From: Sporobolomyces roseus
Lineage: Eukaryota > Basidiomycota > Microbotryomycetes > Sporidiobolales > Sporidiobolaceae
DNA length: 64,000 bases
Assembly (NCBI GenBank): GCA_016617785.1
Contig: JADILM010000011.1
Location: 248,001 to 312,000, forward strand
Reading direction: 5' to 3'
A program made the translations under genes and the position numbers. The notes beneath the pieces are model-generated. The model did not search any database. It saw only the letters and a list, made by a program, of their open reading frames with translations, and was not told the origin of the DNA. Below, one piece after another: positions 1 through 40,151 of this stretch (position 1 is the stretch's first letter; the number at the start of each line of letters is the position of its first letter).

Positions 1-1133
1 CTCTCATCTGACTCGCCGTTGGCCAGCAAGTATGGTCAGTCGCTCAAGGTCGCAGTCAAGGTTCAATTCCCAGGAGTTCGACAGTCAATCTCGAGCGACC
101 TCTCAAACTTGAAATGGCTCTTACTCGCAACTTCGGTTCTACCTCGAGGACTCTATCTCGACAATACGCTCAAGGTACTCGAGCGTGAACTCGTCGACGA
201 ATGCAACTATGAAAGGGAGGCAGATTTCGGTCATCGAATGGGCAAGCTCGTTCAATCTTCGAAACTCGCTCGGGATTTCGCCGTACCCAAAGTAGTCAAG
301 GAGCTGTCCGGCTCGATGGTTCTCACTACCGAAATGATGTATGGCAAGCCATTGAAGGCTGCATTGGATGTAGAGCAGGAGAAACGAGATTGGGTGAGTT
401 TCGCCTTTTCACGCCCCTTCTCGAAGTTTACCGTTCTAATCGGATATCGGAGGTTCTCGGTGTAGATCGGCACTCGAATTCTCGACTTATGTCTGCACGA
501 GCTGTTCAGTTTCCGGATCATGCAAACCGATCCAAACTGGAGCAATTTCCTCTATAACGAACGAACAAAAAAGGTGAGTCTCTGTTCTTTCGCTACTCCT
601 GTTCGCGTGAGTTGACTTGTACACGAATAGATCGAGCTTATCGACTTTGGAGCGAGTCAAGAATACAGCGAACGATTCATCGAAAACTATGGAAATCTAC
701 TTTCTTGCGCGGTTTCGGAAGACCGTGAAGGGTCAATAAGGTTCTCTCGAGAACTTGGGTACCTCACAGGAGAAGAGAATGAGGTGAGGATCTCGTGTGC
801 TTTCCCGCTTGACCTAGATCGCTACTGACGACACGCTTGATTTCCTCGACGCAGGAAATGATTTCGGCGCATCTCACTTCTCTATTCGCGCTCGCGCTAC
901 CGTTCCGTCAATCTTCGCCATCACCCTTTCCATTCGGTACTATGGGCCCACAGATCACCTCGACGGTTCGAAGTCAGATACCGATCATGCTCAAGCATCG
1001 ATTGACCCCTCCTCCGGAAGAAACCTACAGTCTGAATCGCAAACTCAGCGGAGCGTTCCTTCTGTGTGAACGATTAGCGGCTCGCGTAGACTCCCAAGGC
1101 ATGTATCGAAACGCTGTCGGACATACTCGCTGA
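1..1133 (+). CDS. COQ8: COQ8/ABC1-family atypical kinase, 5'-truncated
   Basis: C-terminal 310 residues of the ABC1/ADCK/UbiB-family protein that supports coenzyme Q biosynthesis at the matrix face of the mitochondrial inner membrane. Exons read 1-393, 466-573, 631-783 and 855-1133, all joining in frame. Visible family motifs are AVKVQFPGV (ATP-site lysine region), [20 protein letters not shown] (Asn/Asp catalytic and metal region), LIDFGASQ (DFG-like) and [14 protein letters not shown] near the C-terminus. The N-terminal KxGQ signature lies outside the window, so the gene is cut by the window edge rather than broken. Family membership is clear. Its place next to a pheromone gene fits red-yeast MAT regions, where ABC1 is a known neighbour. 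Confidence 0.93.
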
Positions 1134-1205
1134 TGCGTACGCGATCCTTCCTAGCCGCTGAAATCCGCAAGACTTCGTTTCGCACCGTAAAATGCAGAGG
1201 AAGCT

Positions 1206-1233
1206 AGTCGAGAGTCGAGAGTCGAGAGTCGAG
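1206..1233. repeat. 7-bp tandem repeat (AGTCGAG x4)
   Basis: Four perfect head-to-tail copies of AGTCGAG lie between the COQ8 stop codon and the outer edge of pheromone segment A. This is a simple microsatellite with no visible function. Confidence 0.9.
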
Positions 1234-1891
1234 TGCATATCATGAGCTTCGCCGTGTAGGCGCTCTCGCGACCAGTAGGCGCTTGAATCATCGATTGAAG
1301 TTCCCGCCACCGATGGCTCCGCGACTGGTTCTGCACAGTCCTTATACTCTCGCAGCATAGACGTCTAAAGGACATCAATATATTTGCGCGCTTTCCTCCG
1401 ATTCGTTGTTCGCATAGATACCCATTTGCAATTCTTCGTCTGTTTTCCTTTCGAAGCTGCAAAGCCTGCGATTTCTTTCTCCTTGCCGTTCGCCTTATTC
1501 CGCGTTCTGCGCTTCGAGAGAGAATTGAAAGAGAGCAGTATGACAGAGTGCTTCAAACGAGACGAGACGATGTCCGCCGAGCTGAAAACGGCTATAGGGC
1601 GAACGAGGGGAGAAGGAACGAAATAATAAAGATAGTTGCAAACTGCCTAGAACTATGCCACCGACGAACGAACAACATCAAGGTAGAAAGGTAAACAACG
1701 AGTAGGGACAGCAAGCGAGGGGAAGAAGTGGGAATAGGTGCGAAAAGAAGGAAAGATGCGATCCGGATGGAGGAGACTTCTGGGTCGAGTAAGAGACGAG
1801 TCAGCGATGGAGGGAAGCAACGACGATTGTGAGAGGTCTGAAGACGTACCGATTGAGATTGGGTAGCGAAGATCAGTCCTATCGACCGTCC

Positions 1892-2137
1892 TTAAGCGAC
1901 AACGCATCCAGGCATAGTGTGTCCAATGGTAGGGTAGCTCTTCGAAACGACACAGCCAGGCATGGTGTGACCGATGGTGGGGTACGCCTTGGAGATAGTG
2001 CAACCGGGCATAGTGTGTCCGATGGTAGGGTAAGCTTTAGCGACGACGCATCCGGGCATGGTGTGGCCGATAGTAGGGTAGGATTTGGAGACGACGCATC
2101 CAGGCATAGTGTGTCCGATAGTGGGGTAGGCGACCAT
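1892..2137 (-). CDS. RHA: Farnesylated mating pheromone precursor, five repeats (copy A)
   Basis: Single-exon 81-residue precursor. After Met-Val-Ala come five tandem units of the 11-residue core YPTIGHTMPGC. The first four are followed by five-residue spacers VVSKS, VVAKA, TISKA and VVSKS; the last ends in CVVA, a CaaX box for farnesylation. This is the layout of rhodotorucine A precursors in Rhodotorula toruloides: 11-residue peptides starting Tyr-Pro and ending in Cys, each internal copy with its own CaaX-like tail plus Lys. The Met at 2137 is chosen because it starts the repeat array and has a good upstream context; a longer in-frame ORF upstream is 5' UTR. It is transcribed away from STE20, with 584 bp between the start codons. 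The protein is identical to copies B and C. Confidence 0.95.
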   Translation of the reverse strand: MVAYPTIGHTMPGCVVSKSYPTIGHTMPGCVVAKAYPTIGHTMPGCTISKAYPTIGHTMPGCVVSKSYPTIGHTMPGCVVA

Positions 2138-2269
2138 GGTGTTCGAAAGTGAGAGGAGGAAGAGGAGGAACGAGTGTGGGAGTGAGAGAAGTGAGAGAAG
2201 TGTAGAATGAAGAATGAAAGGCAGTCGAACAACGACGACGGTTTTATCGAAGCGACAAGCAGGTGAGAC

Positions 2270-2371
2270 AACAAAGCACTCTTGGAACAAAGCAAGTCGG
2301 ACAAAGCAAGAAAGGAAGAAAGCGGCGAGACGGGACAAAGGTCGAAAGAAGAGAACAAGGGGACAAAGGGA
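2270..2371 (+). promoter_or_regulatory. Cluster of five ACAAAG (HMG-box/PRE-like) sites, copy A
   Basis: Five ACAAAG hexamers lie in one orientation at 2271-2276, 2287-2292, 2301-2306, 2335-2340 and 2363-2368. The last extends to ACAAAGGGA, identical to the pheromone response element bound by the HMG protein Prf1 in Ustilago maydis. The cluster sits 133-234 bp upstream of the pheromone start and 350-450 bp upstream of the STE20 start, so it could serve both divergent genes. Function is inferred from motif identity and position. Confidence 0.65.
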
Positions 2372-2721
2372 ATCAAACGCTCACATCAAATCCCCACTTT
2401 GCTGCCAAAGGCCGATCCGGGGAGTCTACGTATTAGCGATATCATTCAGTACGAGGCTTTCAGCGCAGTATAGGTTGAGAACAGGTGTCGAATTTTCGAC
2501 GAAGGACGTTGTTTGAAATCGATGAAGGTCTGTGTTGACGCTGCTCTATCATCTCACTCTGAGCACTGCCAACGATCGAGAATCGAAACCGTTCTGAGCT
2601 AGCTTGAGCAGCGAAACAACGCCGCCAGAGAAGTAGAGCGAGGATCGGGAAGGAAGCAGAACTGAAATATTCTCGAGACGTGTCTTCCGCACCTCCTGAG
2701 GGCACCACATCTTTCGTTACG

Positions 2722-5426
2722 ATGAGTCGACTACAGGGAGCCACAGGAGGATGGTCAAACTCACTCGGCGATTCGAGTACCAATTCCAACCTCACTCCTT
2801 CTCGACCCGCTCCTCCCGTACCCGACACCGCCTCTTCCCTCTCAGCATACAACTCGAATAGCGCTCGTCCAGCTCTATCAAACTCCAATAGCTACTCTTC
2901 TTCATTCTCTCCAGCTGTCAGCACGTCAAGTAGCGCTCAAACGATTGTTAGGAGAGGTTGGGTGAGTGTCAAGGAAGATGGATTGAGAGCGTGGATATGG
3001 TCAAAGCGATGGCTTATCTTACGAGAGCAATCACTGAGCTTCTACAAGAGCGAAGTAAGTCAATCCCATCACGCGATCAAGCTCTCCTTCGAGTCGATTT
3101 CGCTCCACCCTTTCACAACACGCGTTCCTCTCTTTCTGACTCCTTTTGCAAAATTCCTCTGATCCACAGACAAACACTACCGCAGCATCGAATGTCATAC
3201 AACTACACGACCTATCATCCGTCACTCGCGAAGATTTGAAACCCTTCTGCATTTCCCTCGTTACTTCGGCTCGAACCTTTTACCTCGCTTTGAAGTCGGA
3301 TGAAGAACTCTACGGATGGATGGACGAAATCTATGCTCGCTCACCCCTCATGGGAGTGTCGAGTCCGACCAACTTCGTTCACCAAGTTCACGTTGGCTTC
3401 GACCCTGTCAGCGGAGCCTTCACTGGTCTACCCGAGCAATGGACTCGACTCCTTACGAGCAGTGCTATCACGAAGGAGGACTATGCGAAGAATCCTCAAG
3501 CTGTACTCGATGTTCTCGAGTTTTACACAGACATTCAGAAGCGGGAAAGAGATGATTATGGCATGGGGACGACGGGAATGGGAATGACAGAAGTCGGTTC
3601 GACCTTGAGCTCTGCGACCGGAAACAAGGCGAATCCTCCAGCTCGATTTGGCGCCGGAACTGGTTTCGCTGGTAGAAGAGACGACGCTCCCGATTCTTCG
3701 CTTCCCTCTCGTCCTCCACCTCCGCATTCACAACCCTCGCAATCCTCTCTTTACAATTCTCCTTCTCCGCCTACCACATCCTCGCTGAACCCTTCTACTA
3801 TGCCTCCTCGTCCTCCACCATCGGCACCCATTTCGAGCTCCAATTTCGCGTCTTCGAATTACATTCCTCCTACTTCGATTTCATCCCCCTCCAATCCTTC
3901 TGCATCTCGATCAGCCCCAAATCGCCCCCATCTTGTCCCCGGTCGCGCTGCACCTCCAGCTCCTTCGTCGTCAGGTCCACCTCGGGAGGGATTGCCGTCA
4001 TCGAATGGTCTGAAACCCCTACTCACGAGTTCTGCATCTCGCTCGAACCTAAAGGAACCGTCTTCTTCCGCTCCCCGTTCCATTCCCGCCGATCGACCAG
4101 CTCTTGCCACGAAACCTCTCCAGCTCCCCACCTCCAACAACCGCACCGATCCCTCAGCGCCTCCCTCGTCGAACACTTCCCAAGCGAAACCTGTAGCTTC
4201 GGCTCCTGTGCACAAGCAGATCCAGTCTACGAAGAAGGCAGGAGAAGGAGAACGACGTATCTCATCAATGTCAGAGTCTCAGATCATGGCCAAGTTGCGA
4301 TCGGTTTGCTCGCGCGAAGATCCGAATTTACTTTACTCGAAGATCAAAAAAGTTGGTCAAGGCGCTTCCGGTTCCGTCTTTGTCGCCAAAGTACTCGCAG
4401 CGGGCACAAAGGTGGCAATCAAACAGATGGATCTCAGTCATCAGCCTCGCAAGGAGCTCATCGTCAACGAAATTCTCGTCATGAAGGAATCGCAACATCC
4501 CAATATCGTCAACTTCCTCGACTCTTTCCTCGTCAACGGTGCCGAATTATGGGTCGTGATGGAGTTCATGGAAGGTGGAGCTTTGACGGATATCATCGAT
4601 AGCAATTCACTCGAAGAGGAGCAGATTTCGAGCATCTGCAACGAGGTATGCCTCGCTCTTCCTTTCTTACGTAACGCTTAATCTCACGCAACTGATTCTT
4701 ACTCTCTCCCTCTTCTCGTATCTTGCCCCGTTCTTCGCCTGTCACAGACTTGCAAAGGACTACAGCATTTGCACGCTCAAAGCATTATTCACCGAGACAT
4801 CAAGAGCGACAACGTTCTACTCGATGCTGCGGGTCACGTCAAAATCAGTGAGCTCGCTGTTTCATCCATCACGGCTACCTCGCTTTTCCTACTTGTGCCG
4901 TGATCGCCGAAGCTGATTCGAACCTTTGTTCGCTTTCGCAGCTGATTTCGGATTCTGCGCCAAGTTGACGGACCAGAAATCGAAGCGAGCTACGATGGTC
5001 GGAACACCGTATTGGATGGCTCCAGAGGTCGTCAAGCAGAAGGAGTACGGAGCGAAAGTCGATATTTGGTCTCTCGGGATTATGGCCATCGAAATGATCG
5101 AGAATGAGCCGCCCTATCTCGACGAAGAACCTCTCAAGGCACTATATCTCATCGCTACGAATGGTACTCCAACACTCAAGAAACCGGAGAAGCTCAGCAA
5201 GGAGCTCAAGAATTTCCTCGCTGTTTGTCTCTGTGTCGACGTCAAGTCCCGTGCAACCGCTGACGAGCTCTTACAAGTACGTTCAACGTTCCGAGACCTC
5301 TCAAACCCTCTCAACTTGTCAGATCTCTGACCCTTACTTTTTGGTGAACAGCACGAATTCCTGAAGAAAGCATGTCCTCTATCAGGCCTAGCACCGTTAC
5401 TTCGTTTTCGTAACACACAGAGATGA
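2722..5426 (+). CDS. STE20: STE20/PAK protein kinase with PH and CRIB domains
   Basis: 772-residue p21-activated kinase. Exons: 2722-3054, 3170-4645, 4748-4847, 4942-5276, 5352-5426. A PH domain lies at about residues 77-167 ([24 protein letters not shown]). A CRIB Cdc42-binding motif follows at about 173-195 ([15 protein letters not shown]), then a long Pro/Ser-rich linker. The kinase domain runs from about 500 to the end, with GQGASG, VAIKQM (Lys529), HRDIKSDN (Asp620), DFG (638-640) and [10 protein letters not shown]. All catalytic residues are present, so it should act downstream of Cdc42 in the pheromone MAPK pathway. PH-CRIB-kinase is the Cla4-type layout; in basidiomycete MAT loci this kinase is called STE20. 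An upstream in-frame GTG-initiated extension is rejected; the first ATG is at 2722. Its first 35 coding bases lie inside pheromone segment A, and inverted pheromone segments flank it. Confidence 0.95.
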
Positions 5427-5784
5427 TTGTTGTCTATGTATGCTGGAATGGCAATGGTATTTGCGAGCGTTTCCTGGTCTCGAGAATATTTCAGTTCTGC
5501 TTCCTTCCCGATCCTCGCTCTACTTCTCTGGCGGCGTTGTTTCGCTGCTCAAGCTAGCTCAGAACGGTTTCGATTCTCGATCGTTGGCAGTGCTCAGAGT
5601 GAGATGATAGAGCAGCGTCAACACAGACCTTCATCGATTTCAAACAACGTCCTTCGTCGAAAATTCGACACCTGTTCTCAACCTATACTGCGCTGAAAGC
5701 CTCGTACTGAATGATATCGCTAATACGTAGACTCCCCGGATCGGCCTTTGGCAGCAAAGTGGGGATTTGATGTGAGCGTTTGAT

Positions 5785-5886
5785 TCCCTTTGTCCCCTTG
5801 TTCTCTTCTTTCGACCTTTGTCCCGTCTCGCCGCTTTCTTCCTTTCTTGCTTTGTCCGACTTGCTTTGTTCCAAGAGTGCTTTGTT
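5785..5886 (-). promoter_or_regulatory. Cluster of five ACAAAG (HMG-box/PRE-like) sites, copy B
   Basis: Same five-site cluster as in copy A, read as CTTTGT on this strand. The exact Ustilago-type PRE (reverse complement TCCCTTTGT) is at 5785-5793. The cluster ends about 133 bp before the pheromone start codon. Confidence 0.65.
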
Positions 5887-6018
5887 GTCTCACCTGCTTG
5901 TCGCTTCGATAAAACCGTCGTCGTTGTTCGACTGCCTTTCATTCTTCATTCTACACTTCTCTCACTTCTCTCACTCCCACACTCGTTCCTCCTCTTCCTC
6001 CTCTCACTTTCGAACACC

Positions 6019-6264
6019 ATGGTCGCCTACCCCACTATCGGACACACTATGCCTGGATGCGTCGTCTCCAAATCCTACCCTACTATCGGCCACACCATGC
6101 CCGGATGCGTCGTCGCTAAAGCTTACCCTACCATCGGACACACTATGCCCGGTTGCACTATCTCCAAGGCGTACCCCACCATCGGTCACACCATGCCTGG
6201 CTGTGTCGTTTCGAAGAGCTACCCTACCATTGGACACACTATGCCTGGATGCGTTGTCGCTTAA
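6019..6264 (+). CDS. RHA: Farnesylated mating pheromone precursor, five repeats (copy B)
   Basis: 81-residue intronless precursor identical in sequence to copies A and C: five YPTIGHTMPGC units and a C-terminal CVVA CaaX box. The start is the ATG of CACCATGG at 6017-6022, which fits a eukaryotic initiation context. A likely 3'-UTR intron follows the stop codon (GTACGT at 6307 to CAG at about 6376). The gene converges on KAP95, whose stop codon is about 610 bp downstream on the opposite strand. The predicted mature peptide is an 11-mer with farnesyl-Cys. Confidence 0.95.
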   Translation: MVAYPTIGHTMPGCVVSKSYPTIGHTMPGCVVAKAYPTIGHTMPGCTISKAYPTIGHTMPGCVVSKSYPTIGHTMPGCVVA

Positions 6265-6877
6265 GGACGGTCGATAGGACTGATCTTCGCTACCCAATCT
6301 CAATCGGTACGTCTTCAGACCTCTCACAATCGTCGTTGCTTCCCTCCATCGCTGACTCGTCTCTTACTCGACCCAGAAGTCTCCTCCATCCGGATCGCAT
6401 CTTTCCTTCTTTTCGCACCTATTCCCACTTCTTCCCCTCGCTTGCTGTCCCTACTCGTTGTTTACCTTTCTACCTTGATGTTGTTCGTTCGTCGGTGGCA
6501 TAGTTCTAGGCAGTTTGCAACTATCTTTATTATTTCGTTCCTTCTCCCCTCGTTCGCCCTATAGCCGTTTTCAGCTCGGCGGACATCGTCTCGTCTCGTT
6601 TGAAGCACTCTGTCATACTGCTCTCTTTCAATTCTCTCTCGAAGCGCAGAACGCGGAATAAGGCGAACGGCAAGGAGAAAGAAATCGCAGGCTTTGCAGC
6701 TTCGAAAAGGAAACAGACGAAGAATTGCAAATGGGTATCTATGCGAACAACGAATCGGAGGAAAGCGCGCAAATATATTGATGTCCTTTAGACGTCTATG
6801 CTGCGAGAGTATAAGGACTGTGCAGAACCAGTCGCGGAGCCATCGGTGGCGGGAACTTCAATCGATGATTCAAGCGC

Positions 6878-9800
6878 CTACTGTGTCGCTCGTCGAACCA
6901 TCTGATTCCGTCGTCATGTCAGCGAACTACTCGAGAGAACGACAACATATCGATAGTGCTTACCTCTCGAGCCCATTTCGTAACCTTCTTTGTCTCCGAA
7001 CCGCCCAACTTTGTTCTTCCCGCCTTCAAGATTTCCGCTACCCAGGGCGAGCTCAACGGTTCCTTCAGCTGACCGTTCGGGAACGCTTCGGCGAGATCAC
7101 CGATGACACCAATCGCAGAACGTAAGATGGCTTCGGTTCGATCTTGGTCGGTGAGGGCGAGATGAAGGAATCCGAACACGCCGCCGATGTAAGGCAGAAG
7201 GACATCGGCCTTCCCTCCAGTCTTGAACCCGCTGACGATGCTCGTGTACGCTTCCAGGATGCCTTCTCGCAAACCGTTGATGTAATCGACGAGATCGAAA
7301 TTGCTCTGCGAGAAAAGAACGGGATTAAGACGCAGGTTCCCGTAGTGTATGGACAAGGCCGAGAGAGTGCGAGAGAGAAGAGAAGAAATGACTGACTGGA
7401 TCTGCTCTCATAGCTCCAGCTTGTTGAAGTACGTTCATAGTCGTCTCCAGGAAAGGTTCGAAAGATGGACCAACGGCGAGAGCGACATCTCCGAAACAAC
7501 TGAGAATAGGTGGTTTGACGCTGCGATGAAGAACTGGGCTTTGTAGTGCGGTAAGGAGGACCTCCATGAAACCTTGACAGTAAGGGAGACTTTGCGGTCC
7601 TAACGCTCGGCAAATATCACCGACGAGTCCGACTGCGATCGAGCATAATTGATACTCTTCGTGCGATCCGAGTGCATTGGCGAGATAGGGTGAGAAGGAG
7701 TTGAGGTAAGGGTGGAAGGCAGCATCGAGTGCCGAGGTCATGGCCCCGATAGCCAAGAAAGCGTCTTCGACGACGGGAGATTGCTTGCCGGCAGTATCGA
7801 CGAGTCGTAACAGAAGGGACATGATACGATCCGCGAGAGGTTGGATCTCGGCACCGAGTCGACGTACAGTACTCTGCGAAGATCGTCACGAGTTCAGTAT
7901 TTCGCAAGACAACCGGAGATTGAGAAAGGTTGATTCGACTCACGGTGATGACGCTACAGATGTTGACCTGTAGCTCGTTATAGTTGTTGCGATCGTCGGC
8001 TCCGACTAGTTGTGGCTAGGGAAAACAAGTCGAGATTGGAGTCAGCAAACGAGGAACTTTGCAAACGATTTCAGAGAACTTGACGAACCTGCATACCGAG
8101 AAGCGCTTCTGATCGATCGAGAATGGAGATGACGAGCTTGGAAATAGCGGGAAGGCAGTCGGTGGGAGCGTGGGTGACTAGAGTTGAGAGAGCCTCGTAG
8201 GCGGACGTGCGAGAGTTGGATTCGTTCGAAGACCTGAGACAAGGAAAAGTCACGGTCAGCAAAGGGGACTGCCGGATCGAAGAGAGTGGTATGCAACTCA
8301 CTTCTCGGCGAGACGAAGGAGAGCGGTAACGATGGGGTCGTAGAAAGAACTGAGAGGGCAAGTTTCGGCAGCAGAATCGCCAAGTTGTTCTGCGAGATTC
8401 ATGATAGTCCAGCAGCAGTTGCTGACGATGCGAGGTGATTCATCGAGACTGCCGAGAAGAGAGTTGACGAGAGGAGGAAGGTGTGTGTCGAGCTTGATAG
8501 TCTTGACGAGAACGTCTGAAACTCGACCCAGAGTCCAGGCGGTGGTGTCGCGAACTTGGAGAGACGGGTCTCGCATCATCTCGATGAGTGTCGGTAAAGC
8601 TTGTGCGACGAGAGGAGCGAGAATCTTTTCCTCAGGTCCGTCGAGAATCGATCCGAATGCCATAACTGCAGCCTCGCGGTACCTCCAATCGGGATTCTTG
8701 ATGTTGGATTCGACGAAGGGAATGATGGGACCGACGATACCATCTCCGACACATTGAGCGAGAAGGGCGAGGCAGGTTCCGGCAGCCATTGAGACGTTCC
8801 ATTCGTCGTCCGAGGCGTCCTCATCTTGTTTCGTGAGAAGGAGGAGGAGAACTGGGAGAATCTCAGGAAGAGCAACGCGAGCGAAGTGCGAGGACTCTCG
8901 CTCTGGTGCTTCACTGTACTCGGCAGCTTCCTCAGCCTCGAGGGCGAGTTCGATCTCCTCGTCGCAAACCGTTGACCAGAATTCGACTGCTTGAAGTGCA
9001 ACGCTTTCGTCGGCGTGCTTCATTCCGAGTACGGTGAGCTATCTCGCGATGGGATGATGTCAGCGAAGGGTGTAGACAAGCTAAAGAACGGAAGACGCAC
9101 CCCGAACAGAGCTCGCTCCATGTAGAACTTCATGAAATCATAATACAAATGCATGATCTTGACGAGGCAAGCGAACGCAGATACTTGCACATCTGACGAA
9201 GGAGATTGCGTGGCCTCGCAGACGACTTGCATGATGTAGTTTCGCTCTCCCTGCACGACCCAAAAGTTCATTGCTGTGATCGGAAGACAAAGGTGGAGAG
9301 AAAAAGATAGTAGCTTACCTCGCGACTGAAGTTCTCGCGGACGAATTCGAGTGAGTTGTAAAGAGCGTTGATCGCTGCGAGCTGAACGTCGGCACTGTCG
9401 ACAGAGTGCAGGATTAGTTCTCGAATCGAGACACGTCGCGGAAGATGCGAAGAACAGGAGACTCGCCTCGTTTCTTCTTTACGCGCTCCCTGAACAACAG
9501 CAGTCAAGATCTCGTTCGACTGGGCTGCGAGAACTTCAGGTTTCTATCGATGCGCAAAGGTGCGACAGGAAAAGCGAAATCGATCAGTATTCGAGCGAAA
9601 AGAGTGAGAAAGTCGCGAGAGCTTACGATTCCTTCGCAAATGTAACCAATCGTCTGTAAAGTTGCTTGCCGTAAGTTTGGGTTGTCACCGCGACTAGCGA
9701 GTTCGAGAAGTTGAGCGATGAGATTGTTCCAGAGTCCCGCCGGAAGTTCGATTGCGGCGATAGCAGCGATTACTTGACCTGATACGTTTCTCGCTCCTCT

Positions 9801-10986: not shown

Positions 10987-11135
10987 ATGCATCATAGATT
11001 TCCGTAATATGACTGAAGATTCGATGTGGTTGTGTCGCTTGCAACGTCCGAGATTTTTCAGAGAAATTGAAAATGATGAGATGCATGAGCGTGTCGCGAA
11101 AACCTCAGAAAACGTTATCTTCGTCACTTACTATT

Positions 11136-12683: not shown

Positions 12684-12746
12684 TTTCAATGAAACCAAAG
12701 AGCTCGTTTTAATCTATCTCAAGCTTCGGATTGTCGATTCCTTTTG

Positions 12747-15700
12747 TCAATCTGCCCACGCTATCGAAGTGTTTCGTGTGCGAGCCTGCGTGACAACAAA
12801 ATCAAGCATATGGTGATGGTCGGTTAGTGATTGAGCTGATAGAAGGAGGGGGGTTTGACCGAAAACTCACCGAGGATCGCGCGAAGACGAGAGAACAGAG
12901 GAGAACAGTGAGAACCGCGATGACTTGAGTTCGACTGAAAGTCTCGCCGAGAGTGTCGAAAGACCCTGAAGGCCTGAGAGTTGTCGAGAAGTTACGCGAA
13001 CTCGGCGAGAGAACGAAAGCCTCGGATTCTCGATGTCCTGGCTGAACAGAGATGACTTGAGTGTTTGTGAGCTGACAGGCGTCATTCGTCAGTAAAGAAG
13101 CCAGACAGACAATGTGAAAGAGAACGAAGACAAGAGGGAACTCACTTCTTGAGCCCTCCCGAGTACTTTAGCAGTAGGCAAATATTCGAGAGGATGGTGA
13201 TCCGTAACCTTTGATTTCGTGGCAGTTGAGGGTCTAGGAGAGAAAGGGTTCAAAGCTCGTCTCGGGAGAACGACGAGCTGTCCGAGACCATCGGAGACTG
13301 TCGAAACGAAGGACGTCAGAACGTCACGAAGCGGAAACGACTGAAAAGGAATGATACGGATGTGAAATCGAGACCTACGTATACAGTCCCTTGAGGCGAT
13401 TCCGAGTCTAGTTTGGGTGAAGCCCTCCACGTGAAACGCTCTTGGAGAAGCGAATATTCGGGTAATTGGCGAGACCTCACTGCGAATGCAAGCAATAGTT
13501 AAGCAGATGGCGGAAAGACGGAGGGGAAACCACTGTAAGAAGATGAACTCACTCGGAGTCGACAGTATGAGAAAGGTAGATCGATACGAGTATATGGGTA
13601 GGCACGTCGAAACTTGTTGTGCGGTAAGTGCAAACGATCCAGTCTTCCGCCATCGCAACTCCGACGGAAGACGAGAGGTCGACATTGAGAGGAAGCTGGA
13701 TCCGACTAGCTTCGTTGCCATTCTCGAGGTCGAGCAGACGAATCGATAGACTTGACGTCTCGAGCGAGGAAACGACTGCTGCGACCAAATTCGCATTTCG
13801 GTACTTGAGCACGGAAGATCTATCGACGCTGACCCGCCCTGGTGAAAGCATAGTATCTGTTTCGTCGGCCCCTCGGGAGCAAGGTCAGCAATGAAACCCT
13901 TTCTCCTAGAGGGACCGAATGGTTTTTACCTGAAGACTGCGTTGCGAGTCGCTCAACTCGCTCGCCTTTGTTCAATAGATGACGCCAAGGTCTCTGTTCC
14001 CGCTTTGCTATCAGTATGAAGCCTTCCGAGGCACTTTGTCAAGAACGGAACGAACCGAATTACTCCCTGAATTGGACGAAATCTCGATCGCTTGCGGAGA
14101 GGTCGAACTGATTTGAAGCGTTCTCATCTATGGGAGCAACAAGTCAGCTGTACGTCTGATAAAGCAGCTACTCGCGGCTCGAGCTCACCGCTTGGAGGAC
14201 TAACGAAGACTCTGAGACGTTCGAGTCGGTTCGCCACGAGAGCTTCGAGCCTTTCCAGGCTTGAAGTGCGCTGGTTGCCGTTGACACCACTACGGTGAAA
14301 TCGGGAAGTAGCTGTCGGGTTTTGAGAGCATAGAGAGCGAACTGTTTAACGTGGAGTGAAGTCGGGTGAGATTGGGAAGACCGAGCGAGGAAGAACGAAG
14401 TCGCACCTCGAAAGCTCCTCCTGTGGCTTGGACGGAAAGATCGAGCGGGAAGGTTTGACCACTGACAATCGGAGAAGAGGTCTGAGGTTCGGCAGATAGA
14501 GTAACGGTGTCGACAGTCGACAGCTGTAAAATCGAGAAACGATGTCAGATACTGCGAGACAAGGTAGAGCGTGTCTACTCACCCTGAGAGTGGTCGACCA
14601 TGATAGTCTGGCGATATGAGGGATCCCAGCACTGTCGAGTGAAGCGCTGAAACGGGAGGGAACGCTCTGTGGATGAAAGAACAGAAGAAAAAGGTTACGG
14701 TCTCGAATCTCCGAATAGTCGCGAGATGGCTCACTCCGGTTGGGTACTGCCATACTTGATCGAGGTCGCCATTCGATCGAAGTTGGAGAAGGGTTGAACT
14801 TCCGTCGCTCCGTCGGGCTAAACGAATTCCGAGCGAGTCGAGTCCGAGGTCGAGCAGATTTGTGTAGGAACCACCGATCACGGATTGTTCACCGAATGTT
14901 CCAGTCGTCGAGCATTCGAAGGTACGAAGGTGCGATCCGTCGAGCCAGATATACGTCGAGCGGTCTCCTCCGGCAGTCTTGAGAATTGCACCGAATTGAT
15001 GAGGCACAGAAGTCTTCGCCAGCTTGGCTGACACTCGAACCGAAGTAGAGCCATCTGTAGCATTGATATCGACGAGCGAAGCCTTGTTCGCCTCGAATAC
15101 CAGAGTTTCCAGGTGATCAAGGTTGTAACTGAGAGGGAAGGCATTCAAGCTTCTCGCGAGGCAAGGTAACGTCAGTTTTCGAGCTAGTAATGTGAGCAGA
15201 GCTAGGAATGGGACTGACGGGATCTTGGAAGACTCTGCAGAATCGCCGGTGTTCATCTCGAAACGATGCGCTTCTCCATCGACCACGGAAACGAGGAAAG
15301 GTGAAACCCCGCTTCCACACAGTAGTGTCGGACTGATAGCAGGATCTCGAGCGCTCGTTATTTCGTGAGACCAGAGTAGTTTGCCGGACACTGGCGAGAC
15401 TGCATCGAGAGTGGTCGTCGAGGAAAGGACAATCGCTAATCAACCGAAATCAGGGTGAGAATAAACCTCGCCGAGGTGCTGAGAAATAGGACTGACTACG
15501 ATCACACAGTCTCAGTTTCCCATCTACAAGATCCTCCTGTGCATAGCTGCGACTCCAGACTGTTGAAAGGGAGAGAGAGAGGGAATGTCATGATTCAACC
15601 TCACTTCGAAGAGCCAAGGAGCTAACTTACGAGCTTCTCCGGTATTCAGATCAATAGCTAAAAGTGTTCCATCTGCAGTGAGCGTAACCAAAGCTTGCGG

Positions 15701-15859
15701 CAAGTCTTGTGAAGTGAGGAAGAGTCTTGAATCGGCTGTACTGTTCGGAAGGAAGGAAGGAGCGAGAGGTCTGTCGAGTGAAGATGCTGAAGCTGTGGCG
15801 AGTATCGAGCCGAATGAAATGTAGCAGAGGAGATTCGACGAAGATGGTCGAAACCTCAT
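12747..15859 (-). CDS. EMC1: ER membrane protein complex subunit 1 (EMC1)
   Basis: Large multi-exon gene for the luminal beta-propeller subunit of the EMC insertase. The start at 15859 (MRFRPSSSNL) gives a signal peptide ending near ATASASSLDR; an in-frame Met at 15919 is possible. Family landmarks are the N-terminal PQQ-like propeller (ALVTLTADGTLLAIDLNTGE, SGKLLWSHEITSARDPA) and the DUF1620 region (ITRIFASPRAFHVEGFTQTR, GQLVVLPRRALNP). Near the end are TLRPSGSFDTLGETFSRTQ and a hydrophobic helix (VIAVLTVLLCSLVF). The last exon is uncertain: the chosen acceptor gives a stop at 12747, while an acceptor nearer the donor would leave an intron of only about 35 bp. Not every exon boundary was fixed. 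Confidence 0.85.
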
Positions 15860-16165
15860 GTTGAAGTTTAGCGAAGAAGACGAAAAAGCGAAACTGAATC
15901 GCATCGCAAACTCGCACAATCTTCTCGAGCCTTTTGCGAATCACTCTCGCTGCGTCACTCGACTTGGTCTGCATCAAAGGAGACCCATTTACAATACAAC
16001 AATTTCAAAGAGACCTTGGTACAAACTTTTCGACAGAAGGATTCCTGCTTTTCTCCGTCTCTAGTCGATCTATTGGCCTATCTACTCTTTCCTCCTCTGT
16101 TGCATCGACGTAAGGAATGAGTGAAAAGGAAGCAAGGAGGACAAGGAGGAAGATTCGAATCGAAC

Positions 16166-16589
16166 TCACCGACCGCGATATGGTTGTCGACTAGGAGCGA
16201 ATTCACCAAGTTTGTGTCCTACCATTTCGGGAGAGATGTGAACGGGAACATACTGTTTCCCGTTGTGTACGAGGAAGCGTAACCTAAACAAGCCGAACGT
16301 CAATGGACGAATTTCGAGGGAAAGGGCGGAAGCGAGAGGAGAGAAGGAGAAGGAACAGAGACTCACCCGATAAAGTTTGGTAGGATAGTGCAAGCTCTAG
16401 CAGAGGTTCTAATCGGTGTGTGAGTCTTGACAGCTTCCGCGATACCAGGGAAAGCGGTGAAGTAAGGTCCTTTGGTCGAGAGTTGAAAGAGAGTCAGCAT
16501 TCGACGAGGAACAAGCTACCGGTGCGAGAGGGAGCTTGTAGCATACCTTTCCAAGCTGCTCGAGCAAACAGCGGTCTAGTGAATAGCAT
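16166..16589 (-). CDS. RSM19: Mitochondrial small ribosomal subunit protein uS19m
   Basis: 87-residue uS19 protein of the mitochondrial ribosome. Exons 16589-16547, 16469-16367 and 16283-16166 join in frame. Matches are [46 protein letters not shown] and KLGEFAPSR, the classic S19 core. The short basic N-terminus suits a mitochondrial protein. The apparent stop overlaps a good donor (GTGAGT after CGCGGTCG). Splicing to the AG at about 16093 would change the tail from RGR to RGRGGKSR, ending at 16078; this option is unresolved. The gene lies upstream of and divergent from RPL20. Confidence 0.9.
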
Positions 16590-17297
16590 GAGCGACTGTA
16601 GTGGGTGAAGAAAGTGATGAGGAGTTCAACTTGAGAAGAATCAATCTCTTTCTTGATCTTTGGATCGATATGTTTTTGCGAGGATGGAGCAGGTAGATGT
16701 ACAAGTACCAGAAGCGAACTATCTGCTGCTATCGATAGAAGATGGAGAGATGGAAGAACATTGGAGAGAATCTCTCAAATTTCACTCGCTCGAACCAGAA
16801 ACAGCGAGGATTGAAACGATACAGCATTGAGTATTTCATCAAAAGAGCTACCATAGTGGGAGTATAACAAGTTGCGAGGGCGGAGAGCGGGAGAAGGATG
16901 AGGGAGAGGGGAGGAGGGAAAAAACTCTGAGCGACGGTCCCCTCTCCCTCTTCTCTCCCGGTTGTTGCTTGTTTCGTTCAGCATCCCCCTTATCGAGTAC
17001 GTAGCTATACAACTGGTATAACCCTGCTGTCCCCCTAGTCTCCCCCTTTAGACTAGTGTCAATTTTGCTGACTCTCTTTTCAATTTCTTCTCCCTTCAAC
17101 CTCAAACCCGTCAATCTCAACTTCAACCTCAACCCGATCACCTGAAACTACGCTCTATCACCTATTATCACCCTCTATTCTATTCTCCCTTCTTCCCATC
17201 ACCTCCTCGAATCGTTTCCATCCACTTTGATCACTCTTCTCCAAATTCCCATTTCATCAACTCTCTTCATCTCACTCGACTCGGCATCAATTCAGCA
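16590..17297. other. Divergent promoter region RSM19 / RPL20
   Basis: 708 bp without a supported gene. The half nearest RPL20 is strongly pyrimidine-rich on the plus strand (CT-rich runs from about 16920 to 17290), as is common in fungal ribosomal-protein promoters and leaders. A 6-bp inverted repeat CTAGTC/GACTAG lies around 17036-17057. No named element was recognised. Confidence 0.5.
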
Positions 17298-18143
17298 ATG
17301 GGACGCTTCACTGAGTACCAAGTCATCGGGCGCAAGTTGCCATCGGAGAAGGAGCCCCAGCCCAAGCTCTACCGCATGCGTATCTTCGCTCCCAACGATG
17401 TTGTCGCAAAGTCGCGCTTCTGGTACTTCTTGCGCAAGCTCCGCAAGGTCAAGAAGGCCACTGGAGAGGTTGTCGCCGTCAACGTCGTGAGTTGGATATT
17501 CGGAATTGATTTATCGCCTCAAATAGTTTCGATCGGATGGAGGGAGCGGGAGAGAGGGATGGCCGAAAGAGAATTGCGGCGATTATTCATGAGAGGGAAA
17601 TGGACATATCTCGAGGCGCGAGAAGCTGGATAGAAAATGGTGAGGATTCGAGGTGCAGTCAGAGAGAATGGAGTCATCGATGAACATGGGAGAAACTTCG
17701 CGGTCAATTGCAGAGGACTGACTCTCGTTCGTTTCTTCTTCCCTTCCTCGTAATAGATCAGCGAGAAGAAGCCCCTCAAGGTCAAGAACTTCGGTATCTG
17801 GCTTCGTTACGACTCGCGCTCCGGTACCCACAACATGTACAAGGAGTACCGTGAGCTCTCCCGTGCCGACGCTGTCCACGCCTGCTACCAGGATATGGCT
17901 GCTCGTCACCGTGCCCGTTTCCGCTCGGTTCAGGTTCGTCACTCTTATCCCAAAATCGCAAACGAGTCTGATCTTTTGCCCTTTTGACAGATCCTCCGAG
18001 TCGCTGAGATCGAGAAGACCGTCGATGTCCGTCGTCCCAACATCAAGCAGCTCCTCACTCCCAACCTCCGCTTCCCTCTTCCTCACCGCGTCGTCAAGAG
18101 CCGTGGTCTCTTCCTCGCCCACCGTCCCTCGACTTTCTACTAA
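17298..18143 (+). CDS. RPL20: 60S ribosomal protein L20 (eL20 / L18ae)
   Basis: 172 residues, the same length as yeast Rpl20. Exons 17298-17486, 17757-17933 and 17991-18143 are each a whole number of codons. Matches are [68 protein letters not shown] and the C-terminal [15 protein letters not shown]. It is a cytosolic large-subunit protein. Codon use is strongly biased to C/G-ending codons, as expected for high expression. The first intron (270 bp) is longer than its neighbours; no convincing snoRNA was seen in it. RibL18ae is a recognised member of red-yeast MAT regions. Confidence 0.97.
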
Positions 18144-18399
18144 GTAGTAATTGACAAGGCTCAGACTCGGCTGCAGTCTCTGGACTTTGCAATTATTTCC
18201 ATCTTTGACTTGCGTTCCTTCGTATTGAAAGCGATTGCAGCACGCGAGAGAAAATTCCCAGAGAGATCCGAAATATTCGGAGAAAGTGTTGCATCGTCTG
18301 TCGTTTGAGCGGCAATCATGGCGCTCTCGGTTGCGGCACGGAGTCGTGACGAACCGTCCTTCACAAGGCGAAGGAAACAAAATCTGAGAGACATACCTA

Positions 18400-18423
18400 C
18401 CCTTTGTTCTCCCCTCTTTGTCC
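18400..18423 (-). promoter_or_regulatory. ACAAAGGG (PRE-like) sites upstream of STE3
   Basis: CCCTTTGT at 18400-18407 (reverse complement ACAAAGGG) and CTCTTTGT at 18414-18421 (ACAAAGAG) lie 70-95 bp upstream of the receptor start codon. They share orientation and core with the clusters in the pheromone promoters, suggesting a common HMG-box regulator. This is an inference from motif and position. Confidence 0.5.
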
Positions 18424-18492
18424 TCCTCACAAAACGCTTTTTCTCGACGATGTTCTCTCTCTCTTTCTCTCCATCCACCTACGTTTGACGAT

Positions 18493-19781
18493 ATGTTTGG
18501 ACCGACCTTCACAGTGTTCTGCTTCCTCTCAATCCTCTTCCTCCTGCTCCCATCTCCGTGGCATTGGCGAGCTCGCAACACAGCCACCCTCCTCTACATT
18601 TTTTGGTGCTTTGTGAACGTCGTTCCTCTGGCGATCAACAGCCTGATTTGGCAGAACCGCTTCGACTTGGAGGCGCCTATCTATTGCGATGTAAGCACTC
18701 ATTCTGATCGCTCTTCTCGCAGGCAAGCACCGATTTCTTTTCTCGCAGATTGTCGCTAAGCTACGGGTCGGAGGCGAACTTGGAATCCCTGCGTCCATCC
18801 TATGCCTTACTCGTCAACTGGAGTCAATCGCTGCTGCCCGGCAAGCTTACTTCAACGCGAAGGATCGTCGCCGACGCCGATGGGAGGAGCTCGGATTGGG
18901 GTTGGGGTTCCCTTGTCTGGTGATGATCCTGCACACGATTGTACAAGGTCATCGCTACGATATATATGAGCGGGTCGGGTGTGTTGTCGCGGTTTATTGG
19001 AGTTTACCCTTGATTCTGCTGGTGCAGATCTGGCCGATTATCTTCTTGCTAGCCTCGTGTGTCTACGCTGGTGAGTTTGCACAGTCGATCGTCTGATGAT
19101 CTCATACTAACGTCGAGCAATAGGCTTGGCCGTACGACTTTTCCTCGCCCGTCGCAAGCAGTTCGCCAGCGTCCTCGAATCCTCCAAGAGCGCAATCTCG
19201 ACCAGTCGGTTCATACGTCTCATCGCCCTCTCCGCAACACAAATCGCCTTCACATTACCAATCTTGCTCTTTATCCGCATCTTCTCTTTAGTCAACATCC
19301 CTCTTCTACCATACGTCTCGTGGGATTACGTCCATGCTGACTTCGGAGGAATCCTGCATCTTCCGATAAAGTACGTGGAGGCCAACAGCACCAGGGCATC
19401 GACAGCTGTTATCGAGCTGGGCTATTGGCTGTACCCTGTGTCTTCCGCCCTCTTCTTCGTCTTCTTCGGACTCGGCGCAGAATCGGTCTCAAGCTATCGC
19501 GAGTGGACGCGGTCAGTCCGATCTGTACTTTGTCGAGGTAAAGCCAAGGGCAGTATGCAAGGCTCGTAAGTCTCCTCATTAGCCCACGAAATCGTCAGTT
19601 CCGCTCTGACGGCTGTTTCTGTATCAGCTCTCACCCGATACCAACAGCCATATCCCTTCCTCCTTATCCTTCAAGGGATGGTACGCTCTCGAAGGATGAA
19701 GATCTCGAAAAGTTCGACCTAGGAGCGGCAGTGCCGGGTATCTTTGTAACAGTAGAGCGGGATAATTTCACGTCTGTCTAG
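18493..19781 (+). CDS. STE3: STE3-type pheromone receptor (class D GPCR)
   Basis: 371-residue seven-helix receptor for the farnesylated pheromone of the opposite mating type. Exons: 18493-18690, 18749-19070, 19124-19565, 19628-19781. Hydrophobic segments are visible in order: FTVFCFLSILFLLL, TLLYIFWCFVNVVPLAIN, GIPASILCLTRQLESIAA, LGFPCLVMILHTIVQ, WSLPLILLVQIWPIIFLLAS, IALSATQIAFTLPILLFI and LGYWLYPVSSALFFVFFGLG. STE3 landmarks include LTRQLESIAAARQ and RHRRRW-like basic residues in the loop after helix 3. The cytosolic tail is about 70-75 residues. The first intron falls right after YCD. The start is the first in-frame ATG giving a complete helix 1; upstream sequence carries PRE-like sites. 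The stop codon is 2 bp from that of the convergent mitochondrial uL6 gene. Confidence 0.95.
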
Positions 19782-19783
19782 CA

Positions 19784-20598
19784 CTACTTCTTCTTGACTT
19801 CTTTACGTTTCACTTGTTCGTCTCCAACAAAGATACCTTTTCCCTACAAAGCATTGTCAGAGACTTTGCGTCAGCTATACGAACGCGTGGAGAGAAGAGA
19901 AATCGAGAGGACAGAATGCTTACATTGTAGGGTTCGGGAATTCGCCATCGTCTGATTCGAGCCGCAACTTCGCCAAGACGCTGCTTATCGATCCCCGAGA
20001 GCACGATAGTAGTCGAAGATGGAGTTGCGGCTTGTACGTCGGCGGGTAGGTGGACGAGGACAGGATGTGCGAACCCGAGTTTGAGGTTGAGTCTTTGACC
20101 CTTTCCTCCTTTCACACTCGAACTAGCCACCTCTTCCACCGCTGCGCGATAACCTACTCCGACGAGCCTCAACGATAAATCATATCCATCCGACACTCCT
20201 CGTACAGCGTTTGCGAGGAGAGAGCGAGTTAAACCCCAAGCCGCTCGTTGGTGTTTGATCGAAGCGTCTTGAACAGCGAGAGAGAGGAGAGTGGGAGAAG
20301 GGGGTGTGGAATTCGTAGGTACAGCGGAAGTGGGAGAGGAGAAGTTGAGTTGAACGAAGGGAGGAACGTTGATTTCGAGACGACCTTTGGGACCTTTGAC
20401 GGAGAGTTGAGTCGAGGAGGAAGAGAGGGAAGAAACGCTCGAGGTGTGACGGGGCAGTGATTCGAAGGTAACAGTTGATGGGAAGGGTATCGGTGCTGAT
20501 CCTACGTGAGAAGCGGTTCGGGAAGAAGTAGCGAAAGTTCGAGAGGAAGAAGAGAGGGAGATGGGAAGGAACCGGAAAGAGGAGTTCGCAAATGCCAT
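19784..20598 (-). CDS. MRPL6: Mitochondrial large ribosomal subunit protein uL6m
   Basis: 244 residues from two exons, 20598-19924 and 19843-19784. A Ser/Arg-rich N-terminus (FRFLPISLSSSSRTFATSSR) looks like a mitochondrial presequence. The uL6 domain follows (LSVKGPKGRLEINVPP, RSLLANAVRGVSDGYDLSLR, LVGVGYRAAVE, GIDKQRLGEVAARIRRWRIP, EPYNGKGI). The last exon supplies the conserved YNGKGI...E-V-KKK basic tail. It overlaps nothing but ends only two bases from the STE3 stop codon, so the two transcripts must share 3' sequence. Confidence 0.93.
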
Positions 20599-20760
20599 GG
20601 CGGTAAGAAGCTGTTGTATTCACTGGTAGCTATGTTCGTGATCTAGTCTGGTTCGAGTTGATGGTGAAGGAGAGAGAGACGTCTTTGATCAAAAAGTTGA
20701 AAGGGAAATCTTCCCTTGATCAACTACAACTCACTCCAAGATTCAATCACTGCTTGGGCG

Positions 20761-22336: not shown

Positions 22337-22359
22337 AGAGAAACGAAGACGTTGAAATC

Positions 22360-22394
22360 GACCATCCTCCTGTGGCTCCCTGTAGTCGACTCAT
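22360..22394 (-). pseudogene. STE20: 35-bp fragment of the STE20 5' coding end
   Basis: Exact antisense copy of the first 35 coding bases of STE20 (start codon complement at 22392-22394, residues [10 protein letters not shown] onward), followed on the same strand by the STE20 5' flank. No further STE20 sequence continues beyond 22360, where the 3' side of RPC40 begins. It is a passenger left by duplication of segment A and not a functional gene. Confidence 0.9.
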
Positions 22395-22744
22395 CGTAAC
22401 GAAAGATGTGGTGCCCTCAGGAGGTGCGGAAGACACGTCTCGAGAATATTTCAGTTCTGCTTCCTTCCCGATCCTCGCTCTACTTCTCTGGCGGCGTTGT
22501 TTCGCTGCTCAAGCTAGCTCAGAACGGTTTCGATTCTCGATCGTTGGCAGTGCTCAGAGTGAGATGATAGAGCAGCGTCAACACAGACCTTCATCGATTT
22601 CAAACAACGTCCTTCGTCGAAAATTCGACACCTGTTCTCAACCTATACTGCGCTGAAAGCCTCGTACTGAATGATATCGCTAATACGTAGACTCCCCGGA
22701 TCGGCCTTTGGCAGCAAAGTGGGGATTTGATGTGAGCGTTTGAT

Positions 22745-22846
22745 TCCCTTTGTCCCCTTGTTCTCTTCTTTCGACCTTTGTCCCGTCTCGCCGCTTTCTT
22801 CCTTTCTTGCTTTGTCCGACTTGCTTTGTTCCAAGAGTGCTTTGTT
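22745..22846 (-). promoter_or_regulatory. Cluster of five ACAAAG (HMG-box/PRE-like) sites, copy C
   Basis: Same five sites as copies A and B, with the exact ACAAAGGGA complement (TCCCTTTGT) at 22745-22753, ending about 133 bp upstream of the pheromone start. Confidence 0.65.
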
Positions 22847-22978
22847 GTCTCACCTGCTTGTCGCTTCGATAAAACCGTCGTCGTTGTTCGACTGCCTTTC
22901 ATTCTTCATTCTACACTTCTCTCACTTCTCTCACTCCCACACTCGTTCCTCCTCTTCCTCCTCTCACTTTCGAACACC

Positions 22979-23224
22979 ATGGTCGCCTACCCCACTATCG
23001 GACACACTATGCCTGGATGCGTCGTCTCCAAATCCTACCCTACTATCGGCCACACCATGCCCGGATGCGTCGTCGCTAAAGCTTACCCTACCATCGGACA
23101 CACTATGCCCGGTTGCACTATCTCCAAGGCGTACCCCACCATCGGTCACACCATGCCTGGCTGTGTCGTTTCGAAGAGCTACCCTACCATTGGACACACT
23201 ATGCCTGGATGCGTTGTCGCTTAA
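22979..23224 (+). CDS. RHA: Farnesylated mating pheromone precursor, five repeats (copy C)
   Basis: Third complete 81-residue precursor, identical to copies A and B at protein level and in the surrounding leader and 3' flank. It has five YPTIGHTMPGC units and a CVVA terminus. It lies about 3.2 kb downstream of the STE3 receptor stop and is transcribed in the same direction as STE3 and RPC40. Promoter and 3' sequences are intact, so it should be expressed like the other two. Confidence 0.95.
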   Translation: MVAYPTIGHTMPGCVVSKSYPTIGHTMPGCVVAKAYPTIGHTMPGCTISKAYPTIGHTMPGCVVSKSYPTIGHTMPGCVVA

Positions 23225-23741
23225 GGACGGTCGATAGGACTGATCTTCGCTACCCAATCTCAATCGGTACGTCTTCAGACCTCTCACAATCGTCGTTGCT
23301 TCCCTCCATCGCTGACTCGTCTCTTACTCGACCCAGAAGTCTCCTCCATCCGGATCGCATCTTTCCTTCTTTTCGCACCTATTCCCACTTCTTCCCCTCG
23401 CTTGCTGTCCCTACTCGTTGTTTACCTTTCTACCTTGATGTTGTTCGTTCGTCGGTGGCATAGTTCTAGGCAGTTTGCAACTATCTTTATTATTTCGTTC
23501 CTTCTCCCCTCGTTCGCCCTATAGCCGTTTTCAGCTCGGCGGACATCGTCTCGTCTCGTTTGAAGCACTCTGTCATACTGCTCTCTTTCAATTCTCTCTC
23601 GAAGCGCAGAACGCGGAATAAGGCGAACGGCAAGGAGAAAGAAATCGCAGGCTTTGCAGCTTCGAAAAGGAAACAGACGAAGAATTGCAAATGGGTACCT
23701 ACGCCCAACTCAATGCGAATCGTTCCGCTCTCCGTTTTGAC

Positions 23742-24728
23742 TCAGGCTCCGGAAGGCGACTCCTTGTTCCCCTGAACCATTGAGCTAACCTTTTCCCGTG
23801 CATCTCGCATCTGGGGAAAGTGAGCAGCTTCGACAGCCTTGAGCTTGCTCCATACGTTGGTTGCGGTATGCGGCAGGAAATAATCGAGTGAGAGAAGCAG
23901 GAAGGCTGGAGGCAGAGCTGCTCGGACGAGGATATTGCCTGAATAGCTGCAGATCTCGTCAGTTCTGGCAAAATATCTCCGAGAAAGCGTGACGCACGGT
24001 TACGGCCGAGGATTGAACCAGCGAGAGTCGCAATAGCAACGCTGCGAGACAGGTCCGTCGAGGAACGGTCAGTCGATTTTGTCAAGTTTGAAACTCGAAG
24101 CGAATCAGAACTCACTACATAGCTCCCGAATTGAGCTGATCTTTTGAAGAGACTACGCGTTGAACAGAGTCTAGATAACGAGACCATAAGGTTAGTTCTG
24201 CTGAATAAAGTGGAGTTTTCGAGAAACGCCCAACGTACCTTCTGCCCGACGCTCCCAATTGATCCAAGTAGCTCGACCATCGGCAGTTGAAATCCTGAGA
24301 CCCTGAGTTGCATCCTGAATGACAGCTCTGACTTGTGCGACTTCATCTTGGAAAGGACTCTTCTCCGGAACCAAAATGACGGGTTTTGGGGCTTCCTCGT
24401 AGAGATTGAGCTGAGGGGAGCAGAGTGATGATACACTGTCAGCTAATTCACTCGATACTAGGGTATGTGGTTGCGAGAAGAGGCCTACTTTTGATCGGTG
24501 CTGTTCGACTGATTCTGGACGAGGAAAGGCTTGACTCGGTTGTGCGGCTAGTGGCTTGCTTGATGACAGAGCGATACCGGTAGATGCAGTGACTAGTGAT
24601 GCACCAATGAGCTGAATCAGACGAAGTGTAAAGTGAAATGACGAGATGAGGAGAATTTCATCAGTGAACAGGGAGAGTGGAAATGATTGAGAAGGAAGCT
24701 GTACCTTTGTAGTGATAGAGAATGGCAT
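23742..24728 (-). CDS. MIC26: MICOS subunit MIC26/MIC27-like (apolipoprotein O family)
   Basis: Mitochondrial inner-membrane protein of the MICOS cristae-junction complex. The first exon is 24728-24705; further exons read LIGASLVTASTGIAL (first hydrophobic stretch), LNLYEEAPKPVILVPEKSP (family signature), AVIQDATQGL, then YVAIATLAGSILGRNR and NILVRAALPPAFLLLSLDYF (hydrophobic pair), VWSKLKAVEAAHFPQMRDAR and the C-terminus NKESPSGA. All links keep frame through canonical donors and acceptors. The family call rests on the LYEE-PKP motif and the two membrane segments; MIC26 versus MIC27 is not resolved. It is divergent from ASF1 with only 115 bp between start codons. Its stop lies 44 bp from pheromone segment C. 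Confidence 0.78.

Positions 24729-38089: not shown

Positions 38090-40151
<2,062 letters not shown>

Follow-up and report, generated by a model that had tools for sequence, protein, structure and literature searches.

Three identical pheromone genes in repeats at an apparent MAT A1 pheromone/receptor locus of Sporobolomyces roseus

Introduction

How do three pheromone genes stay identical, letter for letter, when the codes for the peptide units inside each of them have diverged? This question is raised by the left part of a 64,000-nucleotide stretch of the Sporobolomyces roseus genome (the window; G000:C11:248001-312000, on contig JADILM010000011.1), in an assembly of 22.4 Mb in 15 contigs. 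Between window positions 1892 and 23224, three pheromone-precursor genes, one STE3 receptor gene, and a PAK kinase gene lie amid housekeeping genes. Four direct observations (the gene content, the identity and borders of the repeats, the clusters of the motif ACAAAG, and the nearest relatives of the receptor) lead us to read this region, with a probability of about 85%, as the mating-type (MAT) A1 pheromone/receptor (P/R) locus of a haploid Sporobolomyces, in which gene conversion between repeats keeps the pheromone genes alike and an HMG-box factor probably co-induces them. The locus is real, apparently complete, and ordinary for its order, and its repeat anatomy is unusually clear. The arrangement is already described in this yeast group, and gene conversion is already proposed both for these yeasts and for Cryptococcus.

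Results and discussion

Pheromone genes and their repeats

The coding sequences of RHA1, RHA2, and RHA3 (Table 1) are 246 bp each and letter-identical. In each precursor the 11-residue unit YPTIGHTMPGC occurs five times without change, and every unit is followed by a CAAX-like tail (in order, CVVS, CVVA, CTIS, CVVS, and CVVA). Within one gene, the 33-bp codes for these units have all diverged: each of the 10 pairs has 3-6 differing sites out of 33 with no change in the peptide, and every one of these differences is common to all three genes. The unit array is thus old and the gene copies recent or homogenised; diverged units inside identical genes serve as an internal clock, and its state fits homogenisation. 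From the sequence, it is predicted that each unit would be cut out, farnesylated at its cysteine, and secreted. The precursors resemble rhodotorucine A, whose unit, YPEISWTRNGC, differs from this one. A search for precursors of relatives in the protein collection gave three candidates, none at E ≤ 10.

The genes are embedded in repeats of 1.3-1.5 kb, and the identity of the precursors inside them is beyond chance. A core of 1,261 bp is common to all three copies (1419-2679, 5477-6737, and 22437-23697). Across this core copies 2 and 3 are the same at every site, and copy 1 departs from them at 2 sites that lie two bases apart. Beyond the core, 146 bp on the downstream side are common to copies 1 and 2 only (1273-1418 in copy 1), and 77 bp on the upstream side are common to copies 1 and 3 only (2680-2756 and 22360-22436), in both cases with no difference. 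The 77-bp extension is the start of the kinase gene with the sequence upstream of it, including the first 35 nt of the kinase coding sequence, and is carried by copy 3 as a relic. Because copy 1, which is divergent from the kinase gene, has both extensions, it is the likely origin of the other two copies. A whole-genome search for the repeat returned three places and no fourth. Base-level borders of red-yeast pheromone repeats are thus obtained inside one 891-kb contig; the accessible text of PMC2916851 and PMC3236058 makes no mention of such borders, of a kinase relic in copy 3, or of the ACAAAG arrays described below.

Gene conversion between the repeats would hold the three pheromone copies, promoters included, identical, and the repeats would supply repair templates to one another. 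In the accessible parts of PMC3236058, intra-allelic gene conversion is proposed for S. salmonicolor and R. toruloides, whose MAT A1 pheromone genes lie in conserved inverted repeats, and the published suggestion is made directly testable by multi-strain comparison. The S. roseus locus resembles the Sporidiobolales MAT A1 locus, as far as that text describes it, in having RHA genes in inverted repeats and RHA2 between STE20 and KAP95.

Alternatively, the identity may stem from a very recent duplication in this lineage and not from continuing gene conversion, which we consider unlikely. The finding of 2 differences only in the core is consistent with such an event, as is the kinase 5' fragment in copy 3, which would be expected of a fresh duplicate of copy 1. 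Recent duplication is harder to reconcile with the conserved inverted repeats of S. salmonicolor and R. toruloides and with the naming of RHA1, RHA2, and RHA3 in Sporobolomyces sp. IAM 13481 (both from the accessible parts of PMC3236058); the pheromone-repeat layout thus looks old. A weak hint of flanking repeats in other species, also contrary to recent duplication, comes from the short contigs that carry the kinase gene in S. ruberrimus (3133 bp), S. phaffii (3064 bp), and S. johnsonii (3895 bp). Among the matches listed, nine kinase matches fall in the Sporobolomyces clade, and the longest contig is below 4 kb in five and 20.3-24.4 kb in four; this footprint evidence is weak, as two of the five short ones are metagenome rows. 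The sole Sporobolomyces isolate listed with both genes, S. ruberrimus JCM16303, has the kinase on 3133 bp and STE3 on 17033 bp. In S. salmonicolor, R. toruloides, and Sporobolomyces sp. IAM 13481, the three pheromone copies are reportedly at the same places.

Repeats of this length are, as is generally known, a trap for assemblers, and part of the identity could in principle be an assembly or polishing artefact that masks diverged copies. This explanation is very improbable: the copies have distinct borders and flanks, copy 1 has two differences of its own, and all three copies are inside one contig of 891,505 bp, which carries the whole P/R region.

Continuing gene conversion, the preferred reading, also has a parallel outside the red yeasts. 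In the accessible text of Fraser et al. 2004 (PMC526376), a pheromone repeat in one allele of the Cryptococcus MAT locus captured the end of a neighbouring gene and gene conversion is proposed, and inversions at the pheromone genes are proposed in PMC12510652. The window is like these Cryptococcus amplicons in that several identical pheromone genes lie in repeats, often inverted ones. It is unlike C. neoformans, with its one large bipolar locus, in that the homeodomain (HD) genes are on another contig. The multi-unit precursors found here also set the locus apart from Cryptococcus, whose precursors are single-unit.

The layout of the repeats bears on which exchanges would be tolerated. The kinase gene is flanked by copies 1 and 2 in inverted orientation (2797 bp between them), and copies 2 and 3 are direct repeats that enclose KAP95 to RPC40 (15470 bp, on the STE3 side). 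Genes between copies 2 and 3 include some that are essential in baker's yeast. A crossover between these two copies would delete STE3 and essential genes, and non-deleting exchange is therefore expected to prevail. A more tentative, possible extension of this picture is that the repeats are promoter-plus-gene cassettes that repair one another and also act as recombination switches. In that case, the kinase gene would be inverted by a crossover of copies 1 and 2, and a 20-kb block that includes the receptor by a crossover of copies 1 and 3; strains might differ in structural form, and the repeats might have driven A1/A2 rearrangements in red yeasts.

Receptor, gene order, and mating type

A STE3 profile search of the 22.4-Mb genome gave three exon matches, all at one place, and no second STE3, no search being made with an A2 receptor. 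The receptor shows 73% identity to a protein of S. ruberrimus JCM16303 and 74% to one of S. blumeae JCM10212. A protein search returned 35 matches at E ≤ 0.001; 10 of the best 11 of these bear Sporidiobolales genus names, and five of the 10 were deposited as a1/A1 receptors. In a tree of 18 rows (the query and 17 of the 35 matches, with no A2 receptor among them), the query and the a1/A1-deposited receptors fall in one group of 12 rows with support of 98/99. The yeast is thus placed near S. ruberrimus, S. blumeae, and S. pararoseus within Sporobolomyces. The function of the locus as MAT A1 is thus suggested by its sequence, and STE3 would sense pheromone from A2 partners.

The genes in 1-24 kb run, from left to right, as an ABC1/COQ8-like kinase fragment, RHA1, the PAK kinase, RHA2, KAP95, LSM7, WBP1, EMC1, ribosomal S19, RPL20/RibL18ae, STE3, RibL6, RPC40/RNAPOL, and RHA3 (strands in Table 1). 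Both parts of the Sporidiobolales MAT A1 order given in the accessible text of PMC3236058, RibL18ae-STE3.A1-RibL6-RNAPOL and STE20-RHA2-KAP95, are present. The placement of STE3.A1 between RibL18ae and RibL6/RNAPOL is like that of the MAT A1 P/R locus in Sporobolomyces sp. IAM 13481, Sporidiobolus salmonicolor, and Rhodotorula toruloides, as described in parts of Coelho et al. 2010 (PMC2916851) and 2011 (PMC3236058). An earlier note on this DNA had called the region a Sporidiobolales pheromone/receptor mating-type region, and this is borne out by the receptor's relatives, the design of the precursors, and the gene order. All the genes that it listed (KAP95, LSM7, WBP1, EMC1, RPL20, RPC40, STE3, the kinase, and the three precursors) were located in 1-24000; ribosomal proteins S19 and L6 and the ABC1/COQ8-like fragment, absent from its list, were also found.

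Table 1 Features of the P/R locus (window positions).
Feature	Position	Strand	Basis or remark
ABC1/COQ8-like kinase fragment	about 1-1133		Pfam match on 19-462
Repeat copy 1 (pheromone gene and flanks)	1273-2756	-	sequence comparison
RHA1 pheromone precursor, 81 aa	1892-2137	-	sequence comparison
Five ACAAAG boxes, one being ACAAAGGGA, upstream of RHA1 in the divergent RHA1/kinase promoter	2271-2368	+	pattern search
PAK kinase (STE20 in the literature), 772 aa	2722-5426	+	exons 2722-3054, 3170-4645, 4748-4847, 4942-5276, 5352-5426
Repeat copy 2	5477-6883	+	inverted relative to copy 1; starts 50 nt past the kinase stop codon
RHA2 pheromone precursor, identical to RHA1	6019-6264	+	sequence comparison
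KAP95-like importin beta-1	6919-10115, ends approximate	-	three open reading frames match importin-beta families
LSM7-like LSM-domain protein, 125 aa	10290-10986	+	spliced model, Pfam match
WBP1/OST48 subunit	11130-12683, ends by eye	+	single open reading frame 11514-12020 matches OST48_N
EMC1	12700-15860, ends by eye	-	only C-terminal piece 12805-13167 matches EMC1_C
Ribosomal protein S19, probably mitochondrial	16160-16620, ends by eye	-	Pfam
RPL20/RibL18ae (Ribosomal_L18A)	17298-18144	+	spliced model, Pfam match
Two ACAAAG boxes upstream of STE3, neither the exact 9-mer	18402-18421	-	pattern search
STE3 pheromone receptor, A1-like, 371 aa, four exons	18493-19781	+	profile match, spliced model
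RibL6 (Ribosomal_L6)	19810-20598	-	Pfam match
RPC40/RNAPOL, 340 aa	20761-22336	+	spliced model, Pfam match
Repeat copy 3	22360-23697	+	oriented as copy 2; starts 23 nt past the RPC40 stop codon
RHA3 pheromone precursor, identical to RHA1 and RHA2	22979-23224	+	sequence comparison

Promoter boxes and predicted control

Five ACAAAG boxes within 200 bp are found in all three pheromone promoters and at no other place in the window, and in each of these promoters one box is the exact ACAAAGGGA, which was mapped as a pheromone response element in smut fungi (PMC3248468). Within the 9 kb that surround the HD genes, ACAAAGGGA occurs twice, once between the start codons of HD2 and HD1 and once, by eye, inside HD1. 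Together with the boxes at STE3, this distribution suggests a single HMG-box regulator for the pheromone, STE3, and HD genes; such a factor, acting on the ACAAAG boxes, would co-induce all of them. The promoter boxes are open to testing. A profile search for STE12 (PF02200) gave no match, and all 14 controls were silent too, which makes this negative uninformative. Among the open-licence papers listed, none on red-yeast pheromone response elements turned up, which is a weak basis for calling the arrays unreported.

Several observations count against the overall reading. None of 200 simulated windows (first-order) reached five ACAAAG in 200 bp, but the window holds 68 ACAAAG where 33 are expected, so that the simulation is too low overall. 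Arrays of three same-strand boxes give 13 matches genome-wide, 9 in the pheromone promoters (three overlapping ones in each) and 4 singly elsewhere; however, the 9 stem from one promoter present three times, and the reversed control pattern gives 9 matches against the 13. Of 7 exact copies of ACAAAGGGA in the window, 3 are at pheromone genes and 4 are not, with none at STE3. Deposited names, identity, and gene order are the basis of the A1 label, the receptor tree being without an A2 receptor, and the outgroup branches of that tree are very long. Finally, gene conversion and very recent re-duplication are not separated by a between-species nucleotide comparison.

HD genes and mating system

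The single Homeobox_KN match in the genome is HD2, near 1,184 kb on contig C8, whereas the P/R locus is on C11. A divergent HD1 adjoins HD2; its model, of three exons, stays open for 445 codons and has, by eye, WFANQRQRR in the homeodomain region, and a Pfam scan of its last exon gave no match. The 9 kb examined at the HD locus contain no repeats. Matches to pantoate ligase (PAN6) are found on C11 (192.9-194.2 kb) and to the isocitrate-lyase (IsocL) family on C8 (577-579 and 833-835 kb). In the Sporidiobolales MAT A1 systems, the HD1/HD2 genes are far from the P/R locus in the available published text; here they are on a separate contig. As in those systems, the receptor scaffold carries PAN6 and the HD scaffold isocitrate lyase. 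In the accessible part of PMC2916851, PAN6 and IsocL appeared linked in S. salmonicolor/S. roseus, with the same scaffold assignment. If C11 and C8 are joined as this linkage suggests, at least about 1.4 Mb would separate the HD and P/R loci. Fourfold exact TTAGGG arrays mark the right ends of C2, C4, C5, C6, and C12 (27 overlapping matches, none on the opposite strand), and a short CCCTAA run is present at the left end of C6. C11 and C8 have no fourfold TTAGGG array, and no shorter one in their first 160 or last 400 bp, so that separate chromosomes for HD and P/R do not follow from the chromosome ends. Pseudo-bipolar, bipolar, and tetrapolar behaviour are all compatible with the assembly. By eye, the left end of C8 (1-560) resembles the final part of a retrotransposon-like polyprotein whose tail is chromodomain-like.

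The PAK kinase and linkage of neighbouring genes

The kinase gene encodes PH (residues 76-165, E 2.5e-13), PBD (174-230, 1.4e-24), and Pkinase (500-752, 9.2e-74) domains by Pfam. A PAK kinase is thus present as the earlier note had it, with STE20 as the label used in the literature, but the domain layout is that of Cla4, and several relatives among the matches listed were deposited as CLA4. Two further PBD matches are found in the genome, on C4 and C2.

The whole block, kinase included, could be an old mating-type-specific stratum with alleles that predate the species. The kinase gene does sit between two pheromone genes, and STE20 belongs to the conserved P/R core of Cryptococcus and Kwoniella in the accessible text of PMC12510652. 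If the kinase alleles were older than the genera, a different tree picture would be expected from the one obtained with 42 rows (the query and 41 chosen from the best 120 of at least 1,494 matches among 7,993 candidates). That tree follows the genera, with separate groups for Sporobolomyces (10 rows, query included), Rhodosporidiobolus (7), and Rhodotorula (17). Of the A1 strains, the query and S. ruberrimus fall within Sporobolomyces and R. glutinis JCM8208 is paired with R. babjevae, and all five R. toruloides rows stand together; NP11 is presumably an A1 strain. The test is weak, since the rows of known type (the query, S. ruberrimus, and R. glutinis) are all A1 and none is known as A2. The GC content is also not lowered as a sign of long-suppressed recombination (0.509 in 1-24 kb and 0.498 in 24-64 kb). 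An old stratum is distinctly unlikely. The proposal that neighbouring genes have become mating-type linked gains no support from the grouping by genus, with which, in the absence of a known A2 row, linkage within a species is compatible.

The kinase in the window is closely matched by two metagenome kinases, P0036 (93% identity over 89% of the query) and P0050 (92% over 69%). By sequence, close relatives of this yeast are thus present in metagenomes, though the closest STE3 found is 74% identical.

Surroundings of the locus

Six further open reading frames in the EMC1 gene region (four and two, in separate Pfam scans) matched no family, and RNA families and tRNAs searched across the window gave 0 matches. 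Among ten open reading frames scanned right of the locus (26365-39818), six were without a Pfam family. Directly right of RHA3, the gene at 23705-24750 (-) resembles, by eye, a MICOS-type mitochondrial protein, and a Pfam scan of one open reading frame there (24192-24860) gave no family. Right of the third repeat, a putative histone chaperone ASF1 is read by eye at 24846-25876. Farther on are pieces of a Lon protease (-) at 26365-27300 and, slightly below the cut-off, 28414-29313, a MutS-family open reading frame at 32919-34397 (+), and a C-terminal piece of glyceraldehyde-3-phosphate dehydrogenase at 39072-39818 (+).

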